This document shows, piece by piece, positions 33,723 through 55,506 of a DNA stretch of 64,000 nt (within the stretch, counting starts at the first letter, position 1; every line of letters begins with the position of its first letter). The position numbers were made by a program, and so were the translations under genes. The stretch spans positions 62,001 through 126,000 of the forward strand of contig CAMAXI010000004.1 in NCBI GenBank assembly GCA_945862165.1, read 5' to 3'. This stretch comes from Chryseobacterium gleum. Lineage in GTDB: Bacteria; Bacteroidota; Bacteroidia; Flavobacteriales_D; Crocinitomicaceae. Below the pieces are notes generated by a model. It made no database searches. It saw only the letters and a list, made by a program, of their open reading frames with translations, and was not told the DNA's origin.

Positions 33723-33806
33723 GCTCGAGTGGTGGAATTGGTAGACACGCCGGACTTAAAATCCTGTGCCTGTATGGGCGTGCGGGTTCAAGTCCCGCCT
33801 CGAGTA
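33723..33806 (+). tRNA. tRNA-Leu (anticodon TAA), island integration target
   Basis: An 84-nt class II tRNA. The acceptor GCTCGAG (33723-33729) pairs with CTCGAGT (33799-33805) with a first G-U pair, discriminator A. Anticodon TAA sits in CTTAAAA, a long variable arm is present, and the T-arm is GCGGGTTCAAGTCCCGC. Its 3' end (33793-33807) is repeated at 55492-55506, marking it as the integration site of the genomic island; the gene is left intact. Confidence 0.95.
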
Positions 33807-33807
33807 C
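33793..33807 (+). mobile_element. attL: Attachment site, left end of the island
   Basis: TCCCGCCTCGAGTAC, the 3' end of tRNA-Leu, is repeated exactly at 55492-55506. Just inside are two direct repeats TTAGTCAACC (33842-33851 and 33853-33862), likely integrase arm sites, and a small palindrome GTTGATAATCAAC (33815-33827). Confidence 0.82.
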
Positions 33808-38000: not shown

Positions 38001-38070
38001 CACCTGATTCCACTAATGCAATTTCGATTGCGGATTCAAATGTCAATTCTGTATGTATTCCTTGTGCCAT
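35059..38070 (-). CDS. hsdR: Type I restriction enzyme, R (motor/nuclease) subunit
   Basis: 1003 residues. The N-terminal nuclease domain has Asp140 and Glu154-Leu-Lys156 (ELKN), matching the PD-(D/E)xK site. A superfamily 2 helicase motor follows: Walker A GSGKS at 308-312, the DEAH box at 412-415, and motif III in FFGFTATPK. The C-terminal helical part would join the methylase core. It cleaves unmodified DNA after translocation together with HsdM and HsdS. Motifs are intact, so it should be active. It is separated from hsdS by two extra genes. Confidence 0.93.
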   Translation of the reverse strand: MAQGIHTELTFESAIEIALVESGGYKQGSSSKFDAQLGLFPSYIIEFLQLSQPTAWDKIVNIHKEEVEKKVIQRLVKEIDLRGILDVIRKGFTDYGVKFQMAYFKPETTLNPEADLLYKTNQLTVTRQLYYERVGKNSIDMVLSLNGLPIATIELKNQFSGQSVENAKKQYVYDREPNEPIFHFKKRTLVHFAVDTDEAYMTTKLDGKNTRYLPFNLGYNNGAGNPPNKSGYRTAYLWEQVWVRDSFMDIIGKFLHLSVSEFEINGVKKKKETIIFPRFHQMQVVRKVTEDAKLNGAGKNYLIQHSAGSGKSNSIAWLSYRLSSLHDDANNRIFDSVIVITDRKVLDSQLQNTIYQFEHKDGVVQKIDKDSQQLADSLSAGSNIIITTLQKFPFILDKIGELPARKYAVIIDEAHSSQGGEATKKMKEVLSAKSLEDAEKDEAYTGLEEDAEDEIRKSMLARGKQANLSFFGFTATPKPKTVEVFGIKGSNGKPEPFHLYSMKQAIEEGFILDVLKNYTTYKTYFKLSKDIEDDPKVNKKKASRAIGRFMSLHPHNLSQKAEVMIEHFRQVVSKKIGGKAKAMVVSSSRLHAVRYKEEFDKYIKEKGYTDVKTIVAFSGKVIYDAYPEGVTEVELNGFAEKELPRKFESDEYQLLLVADKYQTGFDQPLLHTMYVDKKLSGVKAVQTLSRLNRMCAGKEDTFVLDFANDTEDILNSFQPYYELTSIKENSDPNHLYDLKAEIEKANIIWESEVNTFCNIYFKSAKSISVSEQGKLNACIDPAVERFKQLPEENSDTNVIGTEVTQEDFKNTLQSFNRTYSFLTQIMPFSDIDLEKLFTYTRYLFKKLPRTSQIDKFKLGDEVSLEYYRLQKIAEQNIAMESQGIYELDGGGEAGLRMTKEDQAALSEIIEVLNKRFATEFNTADKLFFDQIEEDMVADSNLQEQAKNNPIENFKFGFEDMFMDKLIGRMEQNQDIFAKMMDDKEFGGLVRNYMLKKVYDRLSR

Positions 38071-38149
38071 AATATCTAAAAATGTCTAAAAACTTATGCA
38101 AGTTTATCTAAAAGTTCATCTAAAATTTAAGTAACCTAACTGAAATTAG

Positions 38150-39820: not shown

Positions 39821-39871
39821 TGTATTTATGATTCAACTATTAATTCTATATGTATTCCTTATGCCATAATT

Positions 39872-40648
39872 TTATAACTTATTTAAAACTCTCTTTGTTT
39901 GACGAACTAAATTCACGTAAAGCTCTTCTTTTTCATTGTAATCCATCTTTGAAACTGGATTACTAGGTGCGTTTAATGCTTGGAATTTATTTAAGTCAAG
40001 GAAATCTTCAAACAAACAGGGCTTAAGTATAATAGTTAAAATTGTTGTGCCATCTTTTTCTGCTGATTCAAGTAATAAAGGCAGTTCATGGGTAGATATA
40101 AAATCTGAACCTAAAAAATCAGTACTGACTAACAAAATCGCAACTTGTGCATTTTCAATAGCCATTTTTATTTCCTCTTTCCATTTTTGACCAGCTTGAA
40201 TTTGAGTATCATCCCAATAATTTATTTGATTCAAAAATGGTTTGAAATGTCTCTGAATATCATTCAAATAATCTTTATCTGCATGGCTATAACTAATAAA
40301 AACTTTATCTCTTAATTTCTTATTCATTGGAAATCTCTGATTTGCAATATATGGTAAGATGCTTTGTTCTTGTTTAATATAAAATTGAAATAATTCAGTA
40401 TCATTTTCATATTTACATGTTGTGTCAACTTCCCCATTATGTGCTTTTATTCTATGTTCATTTAAATGTTGTATGAAACAATGTTGAATTTCATCTAGGA
40501 ATATTGCTTTTGATTCATTTGAGTAAAATCCCAATAATCTATCTTTTACAATCTTAAACCTTTCAAATACTTCTGTATTATCATTTCTAATTAACTTTCG
40601 CTTAAAAAAAGTATTGGCTTCTTTTCGAATAAAGTATTCATCTTCCAT
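39872..40648 (-). CDS. TIR-domain protein embedded in the hsd operon
   Basis: 258 residues. Residues 115-235 form a TIR domain: KVFISYSHADKDY (115-127), an NYWDDTQIQAG loop, and AILLVSTDFLGSDFISTHEL in which Glu188 is the candidate catalytic glutamate of an NADase. The first 110 residues are helical and match nothing I know; they may sense a partner or signal. No signal peptide or membrane segment. Bacterial TIR proteins of this kind often cut NAD+ and arrest infected cells. It starts 1 bp after the hsdS stop, so its expression is tied to the R-M genes. Role inferred. Confidence 0.82.
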   Translation of the reverse strand: MEDEYFIRKEANTFFKRKLIRNDNTEVFERFKIVKDRLLGFYSNESKAIFLDEIQHCFIQHLNEHRIKAHNGEVDTTCKYENDTELFQFYIKQEQSILPYIANQRFPMNKKLRDKVFISYSHADKDYLNDIQRHFKPFLNQINYWDDTQIQAGQKWKEEIKMAIENAQVAILLVSTDFLGSDFISTHELPLLLESAEKDGTTILTIILKPCLFEDFLDLNKFQALNAPSNPVSKMDYNEKEELYVNLVRQTKRVLNKL

Positions 40649-43965: not shown

Positions 43966-44260
43966 TAGTGATATTTCATTGGATAATCATCCTATTTTAT
44001 ATAATTTATTCAATTGAAAATCAATTATTTAAAATTAGATGTTTTATTGAGAATTAATAATTTTATAACATTGGAATAGAATAAACAATAACTCCGTAGG
44101 AATATTGATTTATAAAAGCTTTCAGCTTACTTTTCAATTGAATTGACAGATACTCTCATCTATATTGGAATGTATCGCCTAAAGGCTTTATTATCAGTTA
44201 AAACTTAATCTAAATAATTATTAATCAATTACTTATATAATAATAGAATATTCCAGTATA

Positions 44261-44350
44261 GTTATATATCATAGTATAAATATATATCATAGTATAGGTA
44301 TATATTATAGTATAAGTATATATCATAGTATAGGTATATATTATAGTATA
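44261..44350. repeat. Five tandem 18-bp iteron-like repeats
   Basis: Units at 44261, 44279, 44297, 44315 and 44333 are each exactly 18 bp and share TATATATCATAGTATA with variation mainly in the first two bases and a C/T at one position. Exact spacing without interruption and a nearby DNA-binding protein gene suggest a protein-binding array, as in iteron-type replication origins. Confidence 0.7.
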
Positions 44351-44499
44351 GGTATGGGTAGATAATCCAATGTAAAAAAAGACGATTTATCCTTATATGT
44401 ATTAATTATTCTTTCTTAATGTTTAAAACAAGTATACAAAACTCAATTCATCTTTATAAGTTTGTATTGTGCTGATATAAAGTTATTTAATCCAAATAG

Positions 44500-44592: not shown

Positions 44593-45276
44593 ATGTCTAA
44601 CAAGTCAATTAAAAAAACGTACTCAGACGTATTATTCTGGGTTACATCGCCTATGTCAAAAGGCAAAAGGTATCACATAACCTATGCTCAAGAAAGTGTC
44701 TTGAGAAAGCTAATTCATTATGATGGTGGTCGTGAACGAAGTTTCATAAACTATTCCAATGAATCTATTTCTTCCCATATCTATATGAGTGAAGAGCATT
44801 TGAAAAAAATAATCCCGAAATTGAACAAGGTGGGTTATATTTCAATTAGCAATAAGAAGCATTATAATAATGGAGAATTCAAAACATCCAGAACTATTAT
44901 GATTGATTGGGATTTTATAGAGACAATAGTTCCTGATTTGCCTAAAGTAAAATCTAAATCGGAAACTGAGGAAGTTACTATTGATTCAAATGAAGAAATA
45001 GAAGTAGAACCCAAAAATGAAATTGAAGATTTTGAAAACTCTTTTCGACCAGATGATGAAATAGAATTATACAAAGTGCTTCCAATAATTGGGTTTAGTT
45101 GTGAAGAAACCAGCTATATTATCGAAGCCTTAAATGATTCTATTCCAATTTTTAGGGATTTTATTCGATGTATCAAAGAATTGATGAAAGAGAGTAATTA
45201 CAAAGACTATACTGGTCCAATAATAACTCCTGAAATCAAAAGTAAGCTTGCTTATATTCAATACAAACCAAGGTAA
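44593..45276 (+). CDS. Winged-helix protein, possible replication or maintenance factor
   Basis: 227 residues. The first 110 look like a winged helix-turn-helix (ITYAQESVLRKLIHYDGG, SNESISSHIYMSEEHLKKIIPKLNKVGYISI), the style of phage or plasmid replication initiator and primosome-type proteins. An acidic linker rich in Glu (about 125-150) leads to a helical C-terminal domain. It has its own promoter and five 18-bp repeats upstream, so it may bind them. No catalytic motif is seen. A transcription factor is equally possible. Confidence 0.55.
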   Translation: MSNKSIKKTYSDVLFWVTSPMSKGKRYHITYAQESVLRKLIHYDGGRERSFINYSNESISSHIYMSEEHLKKIIPKLNKVGYISISNKKHYNNGEFKTSRTIMIDWDFIETIVPDLPKVKSKSETEEVTIDSNEEIEVEPKNEIEDFENSFRPDDEIELYKVLPIIGFSCEETSYIIEALNDSIPIFRDFIRCIKELMKESNYKDYTGPIITPEIKSKLAYIQYKPR

Positions 45277-45428: not shown

Positions 45429-48338
45429 ATGAAAAAAATATTTCTATACATAGTATTGATTTTCTGTTTAACCAATACTGTTTACTCTCAAAAGCCTAAA
45501 AAAATATATAATTATATTCAAAATAATGAGATTAATTTGGCTATTGAAGAGTTAGCAAAATTTAATCCTGAGAAAAAATACAAAAATGAAGAACTAGTTT
45601 TATTTGATATTTCTCGTTGTTTATTAATGATTGAATTTAAATCCAATAATTACAACCCTATTCTTGCGAATAATAAATTCAACAATATTAATATTCCAAT
45701 TGAACTTCAAAATCAAATATTTAATTTCTTAAAAGACTATAATTATGAATTTAAAGAAATATCAAATAATATTTATTCAGAGATACTTTTAAATTCAAAA
45801 AGAATTAATACAATTGATAATTATAAATCTTCATTAATTGAACTCCGAAAGTCTCTAAACAATGATTTAATTAATCAAGGTCAGAGATTGCTTGATAATA
45901 AAATTTTTCAAGATATTAAATCTCAAAAATCAATTGATTTGGTTATTCAATATATCAATCAATATTCAAATAGTTTAGTTTTACAAGAAGCAATAAATTA
46001 TAGAGATTCTTTGGTTTTATCTGTTACTCCAAAAAGTTATGAATCTTTACTAGATTATGTTAATACATACCCTAACTCAGTATATTCAAATGAGATTAAA
46101 ATAGATTTGACTAAAATTAAATATTATGAGATTAATTTAAAAAAATTAAAAAAAAACAATGATGAGCAATGTGATTTGGATATAAGAAATATAGATAAAT
46201 TACTTGGGAAAATTGAAGTTATACAAGATAGTGTATGGATTATAGATACTCTAGGAAATCTCAAAGTATATCAAAGATACAATAATCCACATGAAGAATA
46301 TACTTATTTAAGAAATGAATCTTATATTGTTGATATTGATGGTTCTGAAGACAGATTGGTTAGAGGAGTGATTAATGTTTCTGAAAATGTACCTGATTCA
46401 ATTTTAATAATTCCTACAATTTATTCAATGATTTATTCTCACAATGATTTATTCATAGTGTCTTTAAATAAAGGAGGAGAAAACTACAAAAAAGGAGTAT
46501 ATAAAGTAATAAGAGGAAAAGCTAAATTAATAATCCCAGTTAAATATGAAGAAATTAGTATGTATAGTAATTTACTAATTGTTCAATTAAATGGAAAAAA
46601 AGGACTAATAGATTTAAATGGAAATTTATTAACGGAAATAAATTACGATGAAATTGGAACGTATGGTGAATGTTTTAATTGTCTAGGTACTAAAACAAAT
46701 ATTATTGAAGTTTTAAAAAATGGTAAAAAAGGATTGATTGATTCAACTGGAAAACTAATTACACCTTTAATCTATGACGAAATCACATCGTTTTCAGAAG
46801 GTTTATCTGGAGTTCGTGTAAAAGATAAATGGGGGGTTATAAATGAGAAAGGGAATATAGTTGTACCTATTCAATTTTATTCACCCCATGTAAATATTGA
46901 AAATAATTTATCCTTCCTTAGGGATATTGATATTTTTAATTTTCAAAATGGATTATGTATAGTGCAGAACAATAATAAATTTGGTTTGATTAATAAATAT
47001 GGTAAACTTATTTTTCCTTGCAAACTAGATTATGTTAAAATATTCGCTAATGGAAACTCTTTAATTAATTTAAATGGAAAATCTGGATTAATTAATAACA
47101 AAGGGGATGTAATTATTCCAGTTATTTATGACGGATTATTTGTTGAAGAAGGGTTAATAGAATTTGAAAATAAAACTTTGATAGTAGCATCTTTAAATAA
47201 AAAACGAGGAGTATTAAATGAATTTGGAAAAATTATAATTCCATTCATTTATGAATCAATATCAATAGATGGGAAAGGTTATTATATAGTCGGAAATAAC
47301 CGTAAGGTTGGTCTGTTAAACAAGTTTGGAAAAGTTATCACACCAATAAAATATGATTTGATTCATGATTTTAACTTTCTGAAATTAGCGGAAGTAAGAA
47401 TTAATGGAAAAAATGGATTGTTAAATGAATTTGGAGTTCAAATCACAGATGTTATATATGATGAGTTATGGTTCGGAAGTGATAGTATTATTCAAGTTGA
47501 AATCAATAGAAAAAAAGGATTAATAGATTTACATGGAAACAAAATTACCGAAATAAAATATGATAATTTTCAAAAATATAATAATAACAGTCATTCTTTT
47601 CTAAGAGGAATATGTATAGTTTCATTAAATGATAAAAAAGGGTTGATTAATAAATTTGGGAAGGAAGTAACAGATTTAAAATATTCGAGTATAGATTATA
47701 TCACGAATAATATAATAAGGGTAACTATAAAAACAGGTGCAAATAACGATGATTATAAACAAGGTATTATAGATATTTCTGGAAAAGAAATATCAGATTT
47801 AAAATATTCGAGAATGGATTATATCGCGAATAATATAATAAGGGTCACTATAAAAACAGGTGCAAATAACGATGATTATAAAAAAGGTCTTATTGATACT
47901 TCTGGAAAAGAAATAATACCACTAATTTATCAAGAAATAGATTATGGAGGCTTTTTATGTAATCTCATTCAAGTTCGTTTAAACAATAAAGTTGGGTTAA
48001 TAGATTTTACTGGTAAAGAAATTGTACCTATAAAATATGACCGATTAATAGCGATGGATTCTATCAATAGGTTAATAATAACTTCTTTAAATCGAAAATT
48101 AGGTTGTAGTAATTTTTCTGGTAATGAAGTAATTCCCTTAATTTATGATGAAATTAAGTTCACAAATAATAAATCAAAATTTTTAGTCAAAATAAACGGA
48201 AAACAAGGAGTATTAGATATAAACGGAGAAATTATTATCCCGCCTATATATAATGAAATTGTAGAAATAAGTAACTCAAAATTTTTCGGAGTTCAAGACT
48301 GTGAACTAAAAATTTTAAATTTAACTAGATACAATTAA
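45429..48338 (+). CDS. Secreted paralogue A: shared N-terminal module plus about 16 WG-type repeats
   Basis: 969 residues from the ATG at 45429 (a TTG three bases upstream is not needed). A signal peptide ending VYSQ is followed by KPKKIYNYIQNN, the signature shared with the two paralogues at 49951 and 51781, and about 240 residues of helical, TPR-like repeats. From about residue 290, sixteen repeats of 35-41 residues follow the KKGLID-GK-I-P-YDEI pattern, a WG/KWG-type beta-repeat with WG mostly replaced by KG. Two adjacent repeats are nearly identical (123-bp unit). Probably periplasmic or surface-exposed. Function unknown. Confidence 0.75.
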   Translation: MKKIFLYIVLIFCLTNTVYSQKPKKIYNYIQNNEINLAIEELAKFNPEKKYKNEELVLFDISRCLLMIEFKSNNYNPILANNKFNNINIPIELQNQIFNFLKDYNYEFKEISNNIYSEILLNSKRINTIDNYKSSLIELRKSLNNDLINQGQRLLDNKIFQDIKSQKSIDLVIQYINQYSNSLVLQEAINYRDSLVLSVTPKSYESLLDYVNTYPNSVYSNEIKIDLTKIKYYEINLKKLKKNNDEQCDLDIRNIDKLLGKIEVIQDSVWIIDTLGNLKVYQRYNNPHEEYTYLRNESYIVDIDGSEDRLVRGVINVSENVPDSILIIPTIYSMIYSHNDLFIVSLNKGGENYKKGVYKVIRGKAKLIIPVKYEEISMYSNLLIVQLNGKKGLIDLNGNLLTEINYDEIGTYGECFNCLGTKTNIIEVLKNGKKGLIDSTGKLITPLIYDEITSFSEGLSGVRVKDKWGVINEKGNIVVPIQFYSPHVNIENNLSFLRDIDIFNFQNGLCIVQNNNKFGLINKYGKLIFPCKLDYVKIFANGNSLINLNGKSGLINNKGDVIIPVIYDGLFVEEGLIEFENKTLIVASLNKKRGVLNEFGKIIIPFIYESISIDGKGYYIVGNNRKVGLLNKFGKVITPIKYDLIHDFNFLKLAEVRINGKNGLLNEFGVQITDVIYDELWFGSDSIIQVEINRKKGLIDLHGNKITEIKYDNFQKYNNNSHSFLRGICIVSLNDKKGLINKFGKEVTDLKYSSIDYITNNIIRVTIKTGANNDDYKQGIIDISGKEISDLKYSRMDYIANNIIRVTIKTGANNDDYKKGLIDTSGKEIIPLIYQEIDYGGFLCNLIQVRLNNKVGLIDFTGKEIVPIKYDRLIAMDSINRLIITSLNRKLGCSNFSGNEVIPLIYDEIKFTNNKSKFLVKINGKQGVLDINGEIIIPPIYNEIVEISNSKFFGVQDCELKILNLTRYN

Positions 48339-48509
48339 TTTTTCGTTTCAATTATTTTGCCATCTAGGAAATCTACAATAGTAGGAGTCATAGTTAATAT
48401 AAGAAATATAGTTTTCCAAATGATGTATAAGTCAAATGAATCATTTATCGACTTGTAATTGAATATCAATAATAGAAGTCTTTCTAATATATAGTATAGC
48501 ATTATCTAA
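48339..48509. other. AT-rich spacer
   Basis: No coding frame or repeat that I support. It separates paralogue A from the remnant micro-protein gene. Confidence 0.4.
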
Positions 48510-48593
48510 TTTAAAGTTGAAGTTGCAAATAAACTAACTTCAAGTGAAGTGGATAGAATTAAAAATAACTATGATTATTGCATTATTTATTAA
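48510..48593 (+). pseudogene. Remnant of a third 50-residue micro-protein gene
   Basis: In frame, this reads FKVEVANKLTSSEVDRIKNN and then degenerates to a stop at 48591-48593. It aligns with FKVKDENNLTSLEVRKI of the micro-protein at 48594-48746 and with NDANKLTNEEVERIKKK of the one at 49748-49900. A stop codon directly precedes it (48507-48509) and there is no start. It abuts the 48594-48746 gene, tail to tail. Confidence 0.55.
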
Positions 48594-48746
48594 TTATTTT
48601 GAGTAATATTTACCTTTAATAAATACTGCATCCACGTTCATTTTATTACATATTTTTCTTACTTCTAATGAAGTTAAGTTGTTTTCATCCTTTACTTTGA
48701 ATCGAAAAACAGTTTTTTCTAACTGGTGTTTTATTTCAATAATCAT
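48594..48746 (-). CDS. Micro-protein (50 aa) coupled to the serine recombinase
   Basis: 50 residues, too short for standard gene calling. Its ATG (48746-48744) overlaps the recombinase TGA by 4 bp (ATGA), the classic sign of translational coupling. It resembles the 50-residue protein at 49748-49900 on the other side of the recombinase: IEI-HQ-EKT near the start, LT--EV--I in the middle, V-A--I-GK-Y at the end. Two short blocks separated by a charged stretch suggest a small DNA-binding or regulatory fold. Function unknown. Confidence 0.6.
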   Translation of the reverse strand: MIIEIKHQLEKTVFRFKVKDENNLTSLEVRKICNKMNVDAVFIKGKYYSK

Positions 48747-49462
48747 AATTCACATCTTTTATATAGTCTTTGTACTTGAATCGGGTTAAACTCTTTACCA
48801 TTTCTAGTTTTATATTGTAGTTTATTAAGTTTATCTGCTATATTTTGGAATGTTAATCCTTCCTTTCTTGCTGAGCAAATGATATCCATAGCTTGAATAT
48901 TTGCAATATTGTTTCTTGCATTTTCTTTAATTTTCTCTATACCTTGTTTTTGATATTGACCAAAACCATTAGGATTACCTAATCTATATTTACCATCGAT
49001 ACTGCTCATTTCTGAACCATCTTTGTTGATAATGATACCTTTATTAATTTTTTCTTTTTTAACTTTTAGAGCATCCTTAATCCTGCGACTTATAACTTCA
49101 GCTTCATGCTCGGCTATTACACTTAGAAGTTGAATTGTGAGTTTGTTTGCAGTAGGATTATCACAGCATATAAATTCAATACCACCGTTATATAATGCCG
49201 ATGTAAATTCAACATCCCTTGCAAGCCTATCTAGTTTAGCAACTATTAAAATAGCCTTTTCCTTTTTTGCTATTTCAATAGCCTTGTATATTTCAACTCG
49301 CTTTTTTTTACGTGTTCCAGATTCAACCTCTGTAAATTCAGAAATTATGATACCTTGGTTACCAACAAAGTTTGAAACAGCATTTTTTTGAGCTTGCAAC
49401 CCCAAACCTGATTTGCCTTGTGCTTGAGTTGAAACACGAAAATAGGAAACGAATTTTTTCAT
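48743..49462 (-). CDS. Small serine recombinase (resolvase/invertase type)
   Basis: 239 residues. The catalytic serine is Ser11 in YFRVST; LDRLAR (77-82) carries active-site arginines, and AEHEAEVISRRIK (about 118-129) is the start of the long E helix. A C-terminal DNA-binding part follows (QAMDIICSARKEGLTFQNIADKLN). It would cut and rejoin DNA at paired sites, inverting or deleting the segment between. It lies between two of the three secreted paralogues, which read toward it from both sides. A perfect 16-bp inverted repeat lies in its upstream region. Confidence 0.88.
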   Translation of the reverse strand: MKKFVSYFRVSTQAQGKSGLGLQAQKNAVSNFVGNQGIIISEFTEVESGTRKKKRVEIYKAIEIAKKEKAILIVAKLDRLARDVEFTSALYNGGIEFICCDNPTANKLTIQLLSVIAEHEAEVISRRIKDALKVKKEKINKGIIINKDGSEMSSIDGKYRLGNPNGFGQYQKQGIEKIKENARNNIANIQAMDIICSARKEGLTFQNIADKLNKLQYKTRNGKEFNPIQVQRLYKRCEL

Positions 49463-49747
49463 GAGTTTGTATTTACCTATCTTTTTAAATGAATTAATAC
49501 AAATATATTAACAAATATAACAAATTGCAAATATTAGTTTGCAATTTGTTATAAATATATTTTCTTGAATAATTTAATTACCAAAATCATTATAACCGAT
49601 TCTTAGTCGATTCAGTTCATCAAGATGAAATCTCCATTTAGGCTAAACTTAAGAAAGGAATAACGAAAAGATATTTAAATGAATAAAAGAAAAGGCAACT
49701 TGTATTATTAATCAAGTTCATAAAATTCTAAACAAAAGAGGAGAAAT
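49463..49747. other. 285-bp gap upstream of the recombinase with a 16-bp inverted repeat
   Basis: TATAACAAATTGCAAA (49516-49531) and its complement (49538-49553) are separated by 6 nt. The position, 54 bp before the recombinase start, fits an autoregulatory or recombination (res-like) site. The rest is AT-rich and I see no other feature. Confidence 0.5.
49516..49553. promoter_or_regulatory. Perfect 16-bp inverted repeat, possible recombinase site
   Basis: The arms are identical over 16 bp with a 6-nt centre (TATTAG). The dyad is typical of a dimer-binding site for a recombinase or repressor. Function is inferred from symmetry and position. Confidence 0.5.
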
Positions 49748-49900
49748 ATGACCACAATTGAAATTACACATCAAATTGAAAAGACGAAACATAAATCTCG
49801 TGTTAATGATGCAAATAAATTGACTAATGAAGAAGTTGAAAGAATTAAAAAGAAACTTGGTGTTTCTGCTTTGTTAATAAATGGAAAGTGCTATGAATAG
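49748..49900 (+). CDS. Micro-protein (50 aa), second copy
   Basis: 50 residues from ATG 49748 to TAG 49898. A purine-rich AAGAGGAG just upstream is a good ribosome-binding site, unusual in this phylum. It aligns with the protein at 48594-48746: IEITHQIEKT, then LTNEEVERI, then V-ALLINGKCY. It points away from the recombinase on the opposite strand, so the two micro-protein genes flank the recombinase. Function unknown. Confidence 0.6.
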   Translation: MTTIEITHQIEKTKHKSRVNDANKLTNEEVERIKKKLGVSALLINGKCYE

Positions 49901-49950
49901 TTTTTTAATAATTAGTAATTCTTTAATATAAGAATATGTTAAAAATTAAA

Positions 49951-51729
49951 TCATTTCATAATCAATTCATTTAATTTTAAATTGATTTTATCTCCAATAA
50001 TATTAAAAGGTAAGAATATCTGACCTTGATGCGTTATATTAACCGTATTGTCATTATTAAAATGCGTCTCTTTATTATAATTTAAAATCATTGTGTAAGA
50101 ATTTTTTTTTATTCTTTTTACGCAGTAATTATCTGAAATGCCAACATTTATTTTAAATCTATTTAAAATAAACCTCTCTATTTTTTTGTGTTCTTGTGAA
50201 TAACAACATTCAAAAACCGATTTAATTCTATTGTTCTGGCTTACACATATCGTTTGAGACTCCCTATACCCTCCACCCAAATGATAAACTTGATGAATTA
50301 GATGTAAATCATCTAATTTTTCAATATCAAAGTGGCACCAAGGAAAATAATTTGATTGAGAAATAATATGATAAATTAATTTCATTTTTTCGTTAATTTT
50401 CAATGAGTTAATTTTTGAATTATAATCAAATTCGTGATGGTTAATCTTACAATTTTCATCGCATTTGACGTATCCAATCTCAGAAAAATAACCATAATCA
50501 TGATTTATCATATGGTTCAATAAATAATTACTAATATCTATATCACTTATTTTCGGAAGTTTCAATTCCTTTTTAAATTCATTAAAATAATATTTTAAAT
50601 AGATGAATCTATTTATATATTCCAATTCAAAATCTAAAATATTATCACAGAAAGCATAATTAATTAATAAATCCAAATTAAAGCATTTATTAATCTTATC
50701 TAAACTCAATATTTTACTTTCTATCCTATTATTTGCGCTAGATACATAGTATCCTTTTGTAAATAGTTTAATGTAATTTCTATAACTTAAAGTAGAGTCT
50801 ATTTCCACAGCATTGAAATAAGTAATGCTGTCAATTAAATTTACCCTATTATCTCTGCTAAAGGAATTTATGAATTTTTCGCATAACTCAAAAGAATACC
50901 CACTTTTTACAACCTCTTTATATAGTATATCAGGTAATCGATTATCCACTTCCGTTTTGAATTTTGAATCAGGATATTTTTTGGTGAATGCTAATAACGA
51001 CTCATAATTATCAGGTACAGTAGATAAAACTAATGAATCTCTGAAGTCTACAGCTTCTGGTTTATATACACTCGAATTAAACTGAGAAATAAATTGGTTT
51101 AAACTATCAATATTATTGATTGATTTGTAATTGTTTAATGTTTCTCTTTCTAACAAATTTTGAATTTCAGTTTTATAAATGCTTTCAGGATATTTAGTTA
51201 TAAAACCTTTAAGTTGAGAAATTGCTTTATTTGTTTTTACTCTATTATATGTTGCTAATTCTAAAAGTTTGACGGTATTATCATTGTGTTCTTTTGAATA
51301 ATAATTTAATGCATTTGTGTATGACTCAACTGTATTTAGTTTAATTGCTTCTATATAAATTTCATTAATGATTTTTTTATTAATTACTTCTGGGGATAAA
51401 CTATATTTTCCTAAGAATTTGTATACGGATTCTTTAATATCTGATAGGATGTAAGTTCCATTGAATTCTTTAATTGCTTGAGTCGGATTATACTTCTGAT
51501 AATTAGTGTCTATTTGAAATAGGCATTTTGCATAAGCGAATAATACTTTATCTTCATTATCATATTCTTTATCAGTAGAAATTTTATTGTACTCTTCAAC
51601 TGCAAGAGATAATTGGTTTTCTTGAAGATAGTTAAAGATTTTTTTAGGCTTTTGAGCATTTAAATTGAATGAGAAAATACATGAGAAAAGTATAATTATA
51701 CTCAGAGCGTTGTTATTCAAAATATTCAT
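49951..51729 (-). CDS. Secreted paralogue B: shared N-terminal module plus unique C-terminus
   Basis: 592 residues. A signal peptide ending FNLNAQ is followed by KPKKIFNYLQENQLSLAVEE, the same module as paralogues A and C. About 300 residues of helical repeats follow, with recurring FRDSLVLS and KYPDS motifs. The last 250 residues (from about 340) are a compact domain with several Cys and His residues (KCDENCKINHHEFD, ECCYSQEH) that I cannot place in a family. It differs completely from the C-termini of A and C. Probably periplasmic or surface-bound. Confidence 0.7.
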   Translation of the reverse strand: MNILNNNALSIIILFSCIFSFNLNAQKPKKIFNYLQENQLSLAVEEYNKISTDKEYDNEDKVLFAYAKCLFQIDTNYQKYNPTQAIKEFNGTYILSDIKESVYKFLGKYSLSPEVINKKIINEIYIEAIKLNTVESYTNALNYYSKEHNDNTVKLLELATYNRVKTNKAISQLKGFITKYPESIYKTEIQNLLERETLNNYKSINNIDSLNQFISQFNSSVYKPEAVDFRDSLVLSTVPDNYESLLAFTKKYPDSKFKTEVDNRLPDILYKEVVKSGYSFELCEKFINSFSRDNRVNLIDSITYFNAVEIDSTLSYRNYIKLFTKGYYVSSANNRIESKILSLDKINKCFNLDLLINYAFCDNILDFELEYINRFIYLKYYFNEFKKELKLPKISDIDISNYLLNHMINHDYGYFSEIGYVKCDENCKINHHEFDYNSKINSLKINEKMKLIYHIISQSNYFPWCHFDIEKLDDLHLIHQVYHLGGGYRESQTICVSQNNRIKSVFECCYSQEHKKIERFILNRFKINVGISDNYCVKRIKKNSYTMILNYNKETHFNNDNTVNITHQGQIFLPFNIIGDKINLKLNELIMK

Positions 51730-51780
51730 TATTATTCTAATTTATGTTTTAGATATCTAAAACAATATTCAACCTATTTA

Positions 51781-53898
51781 TTATTTAGTTGGATTTCTCT
51801 CTAAATAACTATTGCCATCCCAATAATATACATCATCTAAATCAAACACTATGTCTCTCACTCCATTAGTTTCAGAATCTAGTATACCAAATCTTTTACA
51901 TGTTCTTAATTCAAATTTCTTTCTAGTTTTAGATAATTCAACTTCATTACATATGATTGACCCCCAACGTAACCAATATCTAAATTCAAATTTTTCATTT
52001 ATCCCATCATTATCTAAATCAAAGTATTTTACAATATCAACATTTTCATCATTATTAAAAACTGTATTGTTGACTTCAAGAATAGCATAAATTTTCTCTT
52101 TTTTTCTAACACTTATTAGTGAGAGTTTACCTTCATTAAAACTAAATTGTTCATCAAGTTCATTTAGTTCATCATTTCCAAAACCAACAGAATTTGATTT
52201 AATAATTATAGACCAACCAAAGTTAGATTTTTCAATATTTATATTTTTTAACCATCCAGATATTTTAAATCTGCTAATAATTAAGTCTCCATTTTTATCA
52301 ATTGAACATAAAAATAATCCTGAACCTCCAGCATTACCTCCACATGCAGGGTCAAACATAAATATTGCATCTAGAATTCCATTATTATCAAAATCTTTTT
52401 GACAAACAAGCTCCAAATGACATAACTTATCTTCATTTATTTTAATTTTTTGTTTCACTCCATTAACTATCACGTAAGGAATGCCAATATTTAAAAAATC
52501 ATCATTATTTTTCTGAACAAAATATCTAATTTCAGGAGAAAATGTTTTGTTTTTTAATTCTTTAAGTAATTTTAAATATTCTATATTACCGCTTAATATG
52601 TAACTATATCTATTAGCATAATTGTAAGCATAATCATACTGTTTATTATTTAAAAAAGGTAATATTACAGATTTAAGAGTCTTTATAGAAGTTTTATAAG
52701 GTGCTGTTTGAATTAGTAATTTTTTCAAATTGGTTGTATCACTTTTTAGAAAATTTAACCAATTTATTGAATCATATAAATTTAAATCATCTTCAGCTAA
52801 TTTAGTGTTTTTAAAATCTTTATGGTTTTTCAAAAACCAATTAATCGTCAACTCATTTATTTCGTAATCATACACATATAGACTATATAATAAATTTAAA
52901 ATCGAATCTTTTACTTTTGGTATAGTACATTGGTTATACAATAAGTCTAAATTATTGTAATTATGATTTCTAATACTATTAATAATTACGGTATCAATCA
53001 ATTGTTTAATAAATCTATTATGGGGATTTTTATTTATAAATATTAATAATGTATCAATTGATTTATAGTTCAGATAATTATTTATAATTAATGAATCTTT
53101 AATTGTAATTGCTTTATCTAAATATTTACCTTCTTTATAATTATTAATGTAGTCATTGAAAGAAGTTATAGAGTTTTGATTTTTTGATTCAAAGAATGCT
53201 AATGAATCTATAATATTCAAGACCTTATTTTTGAATCTGTTATTAGGATAAGATTCAAGATATGTTTTATAGGATTTAATTGTATTGATATTTAGAGTTT
53301 CTAAATACCCTAAAGAATCTCTTATTAATATTGCTTTAACTTTATTTAATGATAGTGGATAAGTATCAATAAATGCATTAAAATCAATAATATTCATTTT
53401 TTTTAATGCATTATTAAATGTTTCATTTTCCAATAATGAAGCAAGTTCTTTCTGATACTGAAATGAGCATACATTTAACGCATTTTTATAAGATTCAACT
53501 GTATTTATTTTTTTTGCTTGAAGATGAATTTCGCGGTTTATTCTTTCTGATATAATTTCAGGAGATAAACTATATTTTCCAAGAAATTTATATACGAATT
53601 CTTTAATATCTGAATTAACATAATTATTATTAAAATCCTTTATTGATTGAATAGGATTATACTTCTGATAATTAGTATCTATTTGAAATAAGCAATTTGC
53701 GTAAGCAAATAATACTTTATCGTCATTATCATAGTCCTTATCACTAGAAATTTTATTGTACTCTTCAACTGCAAGAGGTAATTGGTTTTCTTGTAGATAG
53801 TTAAAGATTTTTTTAGGCTTTTGAGCATTTAAATTCAAACATAATGTGAATAAAAACAATATGCTTAAAACTAGATGTTTCGTGTTCAATATATTCAT
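51781..53898 (-). CDS. Secreted paralogue C: shared N-terminal module plus VCBS/FG-GAP-like C-terminus
   Basis: 705 residues. A signal peptide ending LNLNAQ is followed by KPKKIFNYLQENQLPLAVEE, nearly identical to paralogue B; the DNA of the two N-termini is almost the same over about 250 bp. A long helical-repeat region leads to a C-terminal domain with two Asp-rich loops, DFDNNGILD and DLDNDGINE, typical of calcium-binding VCBS/FG-GAP-like repeats. Likely exported. It sits 51 bp upstream of paralogue B on the same strand, so the two could share a transcript. Confidence 0.7.
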   Translation of the reverse strand: MNILNTKHLVLSILFLFTLCLNLNAQKPKKIFNYLQENQLPLAVEEYNKISSDKDYDNDDKVLFAYANCLFQIDTNYQKYNPIQSIKDFNNNYVNSDIKEFVYKFLGKYSLSPEIISERINREIHLQAKKINTVESYKNALNVCSFQYQKELASLLENETFNNALKKMNIIDFNAFIDTYPLSLNKVKAILIRDSLGYLETLNINTIKSYKTYLESYPNNRFKNKVLNIIDSLAFFESKNQNSITSFNDYINNYKEGKYLDKAITIKDSLIINNYLNYKSIDTLLIFINKNPHNRFIKQLIDTVIINSIRNHNYNNLDLLYNQCTIPKVKDSILNLLYSLYVYDYEINELTINWFLKNHKDFKNTKLAEDDLNLYDSINWLNFLKSDTTNLKKLLIQTAPYKTSIKTLKSVILPFLNNKQYDYAYNYANRYSYILSGNIEYLKLLKELKNKTFSPEIRYFVQKNNDDFLNIGIPYVIVNGVKQKIKINEDKLCHLELVCQKDFDNNGILDAIFMFDPACGGNAGGSGLFLCSIDKNGDLIISRFKISGWLKNINIEKSNFGWSIIIKSNSVGFGNDELNELDEQFSFNEGKLSLISVRKKEKIYAILEVNNTVFNNDENVDIVKYFDLDNDGINEKFEFRYWLRWGSIICNEVELSKTRKKFELRTCKRFGILDSETNGVRDIVFDLDDVYYWDGNSYLERNPTK

Positions 53899-54065: not shown

Positions 54066-55316
54066 TTATATTTTATCAAAATAATCTAACATCTGTAAAG
54101 CATTGTCAAAGCTAGTTTTCCCAATATATTTTAAAAACATTTTTTCAGTAGCATGTCCAGTAATGTTAATTAATAATGGAGTTGGAATTTTACCATAAAA
54201 ATTTGATGCGAAAGACCTTCTGCAAACATGAGACGAAATTAATTTATATTTTGGAGCTTTAATAATTTTTGTAGCACCTGTTGATTCTGTTTTTTCTCTT
54301 CCAGTGATAATTTCGTTAATCTCTGCTTTTTCACAAACAATTTTAATGTATTGATTGAATTTGGTATCACTAATTTTGTGAGGCATACCATCTTCTATCA
54401 TATTTAAAGCTTTAGGTAAAAGAGGTATAGCTACAAGTTTCCCAGTTTTTTGTTGTTTCAATTCAATAATTTTCTTTCCCTGATACTCTTTGATATTTGA
54501 TTCGGTAATCGATAGTAGGTCACTAACTCTTTGCCCCAGTAAACAGCCAAGTAGAAGCCATTTCTGAGCGTTTTTTAGATAAGATTGCTCAAATACTGCA
54601 TCACTTATTTTTTGTTGTTCTAATTCAGATAAATAGATAATATTTTCTGGTTCTTTATTCTCTGAATAACTTTTAATTGCTTTTAATTGAGGGCTAACTT
54701 GAATTCCATTTTTTTCTGCATCAAGACATATTGTTTTTAAATTGTCAATGTTTTTCCCTTTATAATTTACTGAATAACCTATGTCGCTTAGCCATTTATT
54801 GAATTTATCTCTAAATGGAATATCTATTTCTCTAACAAGGTATTTTTTGTGTTTACTAGTTTCGTCTTCAAATCGAGTGAACAGATTTTTGAAAGTGATA
54901 AGTCCTTTTACTCTGTTTTGACCAAGACCTAATTCATTTTTTTGGTTCTTCTTGGTAGGAGCATCATCTATATATTTTTGAATATAGTTTGTTACAATAT
55001 CTAAATCAATAACAATTGTTTTTTTATTGTAAATATCAATTTTTAATTGAAGCCAGTTTCCATCTATAGGAATTCCATTTCCAAAATCATTATTATATGC
55101 AGTTTCGATATGTATTGTTAATTTATCAAGTTTTGTTTTTAAAGCTTTGGATTCTTCATTTTTTTGATTGGGAATACCCTTGGACTTATTCCAGTCTTTA
55201 GGATTGATTATGTGACCAGTTTTACGTTTTAGAACAGTTTTACGGTCTATTGAAAATCTAATGAATATATTTGCATTATCAGACGTACTTTGAAGCAGAT
55301 ATTTAATTGTTGCCAT
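54066..55316 (-). CDS. int: Tyrosine recombinase / integrase of the island
   Basis: 416 residues. An N-terminal arm-binding and SAM-like core-binding part precedes the catalytic domain, where Arg263 (GQRVSD), His363 and Arg366 (SSHVCRRSF), His388 (ITGHAT) and the nucleophile Tyr397 (LKYIG) form the complete RHRHY set. It integrates at tRNA-Leu: a 15-bp copy of that tRNA's end lies 176 bp upstream of the gene, and paired 10-bp repeats flank both ends. The size and arrangement are those of Bacteroidota mobile-element integrases. Confidence 0.92.
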   Translation of the reverse strand: MATIKYLLQSTSDNANIFIRFSIDRKTVLKRKTGHIINPKDWNKSKGIPNQKNEESKALKTKLDKLTIHIETAYNNDFGNGIPIDGNWLQLKIDIYNKKTIVIDLDIVTNYIQKYIDDAPTKKNQKNELGLGQNRVKGLITFKNLFTRFEDETSKHKKYLVREIDIPFRDKFNKWLSDIGYSVNYKGKNIDNLKTICLDAEKNGIQVSPQLKAIKSYSENKEPENIIYLSELEQQKISDAVFEQSYLKNAQKWLLLGCLLGQRVSDLLSITESNIKEYQGKKIIELKQQKTGKLVAIPLLPKALNMIEDGMPHKISDTKFNQYIKIVCEKAEINEIITGREKTESTGATKIIKAPKYKLISSHVCRRSFASNFYGKIPTPLLINITGHATEKMFLKYIGKTSFDNALQMLDYFDKI

Positions 55317-55491: not shown

Positions 55492-55506
55492 TCCCGCCTC
55501 GAGTAC
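55492..55506 (+). mobile_element. attR: Attachment site, right end of the island
   Basis: TCCCGCCTCGAGTAC is an exact copy of the tRNA-Leu 3' end at 33793-33807. The base before it differs from the tRNA (A in place of G), so this is the boundary of the shared core. Confidence 0.82.

Follow-up and report, generated by a model that had tools for sequence, protein, structure and literature searches.

Three exported paralogues with a common helical front and different tails on a mobile island, with signs of recombination between front and tail

The window analysed here, a continuous stretch of 64,000 nucleotides, contains three related genes, which are designated P1, P2 and P3:

45,429 to 48,338, forward strand: P1, exported protein of 969 amino acids with a helical front and WG repeats (ORF call, Pfam)
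49,951 to 51,729, reverse strand: P2, exported protein of 592 amino acids with a helical front and an unclassified tail (ORF call, AlphaFold2)
51,781 to 53,898, reverse strand: P3, exported protein of 705 amino acids with a helical front and a DxDxDG-type beta tail (ORF call, AlphaFold2)

All three proteins start with a signal-peptide-like stretch, recognized by eye, which is followed by QKPKKI[FY]NY, and the ORF calls agree with the first-pass annotation, which had placed three genes with such a start and the motif KPKKIxNY at these positions. The common N-terminal module with different C-termini that it proposed was also found. BLASTP links the proteins in pairs (P2/P3, E=4e-71; P1/P2, 5e-34; P1/P3, 2e-27), with the similarity confined to the N-terminal ~240-390 residues, whilst no alignment was possible between any two of the C-termini. 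P1 is old and diverged, with 33% identity to P3, and, in the leader, its DNA identity to P2 and P3 is only about 60%. Across most of the front common to the paralogues, dN/dS is below 1. The stop codon of P3 lies 51 bp from the start of P2, without a gene in between.

The tails are of different kinds. That P1 ends in WG-type repeats was confirmed by Pfam, which recognizes 16 WG stretches (4e-76); the score against WG_beta_rep (PF14903) is 251 bits, with a gathering score of 25.6. Since P2 and P3 do not match PF14903, only P1 is filed as a WG-repeat protein. In published modelling, WG repeats did not match any known structure (PMC8078820). Within the WG region of P1, two neighbouring units of 123 bp (47,629-47,874) are 85% identical, which indicates a recent internal duplication of repeats. 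The tail of P2 contains no Pfam domain. It had been called Cys/His-rich, but, of the seven Cys residues counted by eye, only one is kept in the alignment with the homologous tail of L042, a gene of genome G015 discussed below, and thus such a composition is not a conserved property. That copy is also the only convincing relative of the P2 tail; weaker matches contain stops. The tail of P3 contains two DxDxDG-like loops, for which Pfam reports only a sub-threshold EF-hand. A homologue of this tail, preceded by a signal-peptide-like N-terminus and an SH3_3 domain, was found in one other genome among 395 of the phylum, and none besides the window's own among 247 genomes of the class. AlphaFold2, run with eight sequences, gave pLDDT values mostly below 50 and no usable model for the tails of P2 and P3, and no PDB relative of the tails was found by sequence. 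The tails match none of the toxin, defence or sorting-domain models in Pfam, NCBIfam and PADLOC; the C-terminal sorting domain of the type IX secretion system (T9SS) was specifically sought in P1-P3 with Pfam and NCBIfam and not found.

The fronts of P2 and P3 are helical throughout in the AlphaFold2 models, with high confidence for approximately residues 150-270 and less for the leader. P2 resembles the Pfam families YfiO (21.3 bits, gathering score 25) and TPR_6 (12.3 bits, gathering score 26.3); neither family reaches its gathering score in any of P1-P3, and the likeness to TPR or YfiO (BamD) proteins is thus one of resemblance, not of membership. BamD-like structures also rank in a Foldseek search with the helical front, with TM-scores of 0.1-0.2 of the query. 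Because these scores are low and only one E-value is below 0.001, they point weakly to a docking role.

The front of P3 finds matches in 13 of the 240 genomes of the bacterial family, strong ones only in G015, G022, G024, G035 and G000, the last being the genome of the window. A profile of eight fronts detected five loci, all in these relatives, when one genome for each of 85,000 species was searched. To judge from profile comparisons, this close module is rare, yet part of a broad family of exported helical-repeat proteins. A6, a profile built from ten N-termini of weaker matches to the P3 front, aligned with the close module over 154 columns with 98.1% probability (E 8.9e-14), whereas reversed and column-shuffled controls reached 0.0-0.8%. 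A6 has matches in 218 of the 240 genomes (91%), many of them within open frames that span some 700-740 codons. When 29 proteins with A6-type fronts were scanned, chosen from the best-scoring loci and hence not a random sample, the tails comprised 20 of the WG type, seven PD40 and one FISUMP. Accessory copies of the wider family carry PD40, FISUMP or combined WG and TonB_C tails; in the G024 copy, TonB_C, which is a periplasmic domain, follows the WG repeats. Thus, the module is a general exported front, with WG repeats as the commonest tail among those read. The first-pass annotation had set its proposal against a general TPR region with uniform C-termini in most genomes; the family is general indeed and mostly WG-tailed among the tails read, but the tails of the accessory copies are diverse.

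P1-P3 lie on an island with the following boundaries:

33,723 to 33,807, forward strand: tRNA-Leu (TAA), the 3' end of which is the left att core
33,793 to 33,807, forward strand: left att core TCCCGCCTCGAGTAC, at the 3' end of tRNA-Leu (direct-repeat search, empty site)
54,066 to 55,316, reverse strand: tyrosine integrase at the right end of the island (Pfam)
55,492 to 55,506, forward strand: right att core, an exact copy of TCCCGCCTCGAGTAC (direct-repeat search, empty site)

Two exact 15-bp matches are not expected by chance. G029, which belongs to the same genus, has an empty site, where one copy of the 15-mer joins the two flanks directly, and the 21.7 kb between the att cores is therefore an insertion. 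The mobility of the island, claimed earlier, is thus substantiated by the direct repeats, the integrase and the empty site. At its left end, the island encodes an excisionase-like HTH protein, and its cargo consists of a type I restriction system, a Schlafen/AlbA_2 protein, a TIR-like protein, a serine recombinase and P1-P3. Between 35,059 and 43,657, the type I restriction genes are interleaved with the genes for the Schlafen/AlbA_2 protein and the ThsB-like TIR protein (39,872-40,648) as defence cargo. The two copies of a 59-bp direct repeat (38,033-38,091 and 39,830-39,888; 78% identical) cover the start of the gene for a restriction subunit and the gap that precedes the Schlafen gene, and may mark the insertion of the latter. 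AT-rich tandem repeats of 18 bp (44,230-44,355), which are iteron-like, lie upstream of a gene for a DnaD/replication-initiator-like protein (44,593-45,276). A defence function of P1-P3 themselves was considered and rejected, as no PADLOC model matched them, in contrast to the TIR-like protein and the type I restriction genes nearby. Likewise, a scan of viral contigs and tblastn searches of plasmids and phages yielded nothing in favor of a phage or plasmid origin of the three genes.

A comparison with G015, a 76%-complete MAG of another genus, bears on the origin of the tails. Two close relatives are found there, L041 on contig C189 and L042 on contig C175, and the similarity to the genes of the window ends, approximately, at:

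53,428 to 53,458, reverse strand: end of similarity between P3 (codons ~147-157) and the WG-tailed gene of G015 (DNA comparison)
50,587 to 50,617, reverse strand: end of similarity between P2 (codons ~371-381) and the P2-like gene of G015 (DNA comparison)

From approximately codon 26 to codon 150, the DNA identity between L041 and P3 is about 88% (76-98% per 15 codons), and it drops to background immediately thereafter. The tail of L041 consists of WG repeats, whereas that of P3 is of the DxDxDG type. L042 is about 85% identical in DNA to P2 up to codon ~375, and beyond this point the tails are 24% identical in protein; the tail of P2 could have diverged fast rather than been exchanged. At its end, C189 overlaps the beginning of C175 by 16 exactly matching bases in the expected orientation, and, by ORF coordinates, the WG frame of C189 continues as an open frame before the P2-like gene on C175. 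From this overlap and these coordinates, the two contigs are taken as adjacent, which would give the order of a P3-type front followed by a P2-like gene, as for P3 and P2 in the window. Since a P3-type front is thus connected to WG repeats at the syntenic locus of another genus, one tail replacement appears to be documented, dependent on the join of two contigs of a MAG. The record that contains L041 and L042 (CALPRR02) is titled Candidatus Kuenenia stuttgartiensis, and that containing a further locus, L043 (CALPMT02), Chitinophaga pinensis; a genome search places both in the bacterial family of the window, and the titles look wrong.

The leaders of neighboring genes group differently from the remainder of the fronts. 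The relevant segments are:

51,487 to 51,654, reverse strand: P2 codons 26-81, homogenised leader block (site grouping, dS)
53,656 to 53,823, reverse strand: P3 codons 26-81, homogenised leader block (site grouping, dS)

In a codon alignment of P2, P3, L041 and L042, the informative sites in codons 20-81 group the sequences by genome, i.e., P2 with P3 and L041 with L042 (7:1), whereas those in later codons group them by orthology (60:5). The switch, located by maximum likelihood over all positions, lies between codons 79 and 82 (permutation p=6e-5, or 3e-5 with one site per codon), with only eight informative sites in the leader block. The dS values for codons 26-80 agree with this grouping (P2/P3, 0.25; P2/L042, 0.80; P3/L041, 0.61). 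Because the leader groups by genome and the later codons by orthology, the simplest account of this statistical signal is that the leader underwent gene conversion within a genome; given the eight sites in the block, it could have been a single event.

These observations bear on a plainer account, i.e., ordinary duplication and divergence, in which the paralogues are the products of an ancient split, individual tails were acquired or lost one at a time, as in any multidomain family, without continuing exchange, and the proteins are generic envelope scaffolding. The wide family with its mostly WG tails among those read, the age and divergence of P1, and the dN/dS below 1 over most of the common front all fit such a history. 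However, it does not readily explain why the high DNA identity of P3 and its G015 counterpart stops so abruptly around codon 150, nor the switch in the phylogeny of the leader. This account is possible but somewhat unlikely.

For the remaining alternatives, a serine recombinase and several small ORFs have to be considered:

48,335 to 48,502, reverse strand: 55-amino-acid ORF, with a counterpart (83% DNA identity) 3' of the P2-like gene of G015
48,516 to 48,568, forward strand: remnant of a 50-amino-acid ORF, near the serine recombinase
48,594 to 48,746, reverse strand: 50-amino-acid ORF, overlapping the stop of the recombinase gene by 4 bp
48,743 to 49,462, reverse strand: serine recombinase with a Resolvase domain (Pfam), absent from the same place in G015
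49,748 to 49,900, forward strand: second, related 50-amino-acid ORF, near the serine recombinase

In polymorphic toxin systems, a constant N-terminal part is combined with C-termini that are exchanged by recombination, and the systems are mobile (PMC3482391). P1-P3 share these properties, including the exchange of C-termini behind a constant front, and could be supposed to deliver variable C-terminal toxins to rivals, with immunity genes that have escaped recognition. Two of the tails are without a known family, and the 55-amino-acid ORF downstream of P2 is conserved in two genera, with more changes between the copies at third than at first and second codon positions (13, 9 and 5); with its hydrophobic middle, it may encode a small membrane protein. 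However, neither a known toxin fold or domain (Pfam, NCBIfam, PADLOC) nor a recognized delivery module or marker is present in P1-P3, WG repeats also occur as non-toxin, binding-type domains, and so does the tail type of P3 in its occurrence behind SH3_3. Nor does a cognate immunity gene follow each tail: the gap between P3 and P2 is gene-free, and only ORFs of 50-55 amino acids lie nearby, not one per tail. The 50-amino-acid ORFs were rejected as immunity genes, as two intact copies and a remnant surround the recombinase. A remnant is also found downstream of the P2-like gene in G015, no relatives were found elsewhere in 198 genomes of the phylum, and the product is possibly an accessory protein of the recombinase. 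Thus, the label of a polymorphic exported system given in the first-pass annotation is apt for the constant front with an exchanged tail, seen in the syntenic locus and the leader signal, but fails in the toxin sense, which is improbable.

The recombinase was also suggested to help swap the tails, by inverting or moving cassettes. It sits between the oppositely oriented paralogues, it distantly resembles invertases of the Mpi type (E 3e-7, which falls well short of the family cut-off), and a 46%-identical recombinase is encoded about 3 kb from the G022 copy. In G015, however, the DNA 3' of the P2-like gene, which is ~80% identical to that 3' of P1 in the window, runs directly on to the P2-like gene where the window has the recombinase and the two 50-amino-acid ORFs; yet the tail differs, and the recombinase is therefore not needed for the difference. 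As, in addition, even the longest inverted repeats of this region match imperfectly (70-81%) and none flanks the tails, and the leader of P1 is so different from those of P2 and P3, switching by inversion was rejected and can be regarded as largely refuted.

The locus is real and correctly described, and it belongs to an ordinary and wide family with a sign of front/tail recombination. The explanation that is preferred, with a probability of about one half, is that P1-P3 are island-borne scaffold or adaptor paralogues with a docking front and ligand-binding tails, which are exchanged by recombination in the front. They would be accessory members of the widespread family of exported, TPR-like helical-repeat scaffolds in this group of Flavobacteriales. 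By means of the shared front, they would most likely dock to one and the same partner, either in the periplasm or on the inner side of the outer membrane, whilst the tail, be it the WG repeats, the DxDxDG beta domain or the domain of P2, would bind variable ligands. Homologous recombination within the front could join one front to another tail and thereby generate new tails, and gene conversion would keep the first ~80 codons of neighboring copies alike.

Among the closest described precedents is PorE, an exported protein with a TPR domain followed by a beta-propeller, which has been proposed to act as a scaffold for the type IX secretion system in the periplasm (PMC7192894). P1-P3 have the same plan, i.e., exported helical repeats and a beta tail, and, because of this match, are read as periplasmic or outer-membrane-associated adaptors. 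Unlike PorE, they have no lipobox as judged by eye, and Pfam detects neither the CRD nor the OmpA-like domain that completes the PorE architecture (TPR, propeller, CRD and OmpA_C). Among the exported WG-repeat proteins of Bacteroidota (PF14903), P1 and most of the relatives scanned likewise combine a helical front with a WG tail, whereas P2 and P3 are without WG repeats. FISUMP (Fib_succ_major) and PD40 proteins have the same helical front within the wider family, but their tails are absent from the island copies. The adaptor role is thus suggested by architecture, and there is better support for tail exchange and for the homogenised leader.

In these genomes, exported WG-repeat proteins are common, and a literature search found no paper describing their function. 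The homogenised fronts and the tails replaced between genera show which part of these proteins is retained and which is changing, and the occurrence of the same front with different tails offers a handle for asking what the tails bind. More broadly, though this is unlikely as yet, mobile exported envelope scaffolds of Bacteroidota may be a non-toxin counterpart of the polymorphic toxins, with tails recombined via a homogenised leader and without a dedicated recombinase. If so, the bacteria could rapidly diversify the binding properties of their envelope, e.g., towards phages or neighbors, and, if tail exchange is frequent, the logic of polymorphic toxins would also hold for envelope proteins that are not toxic.
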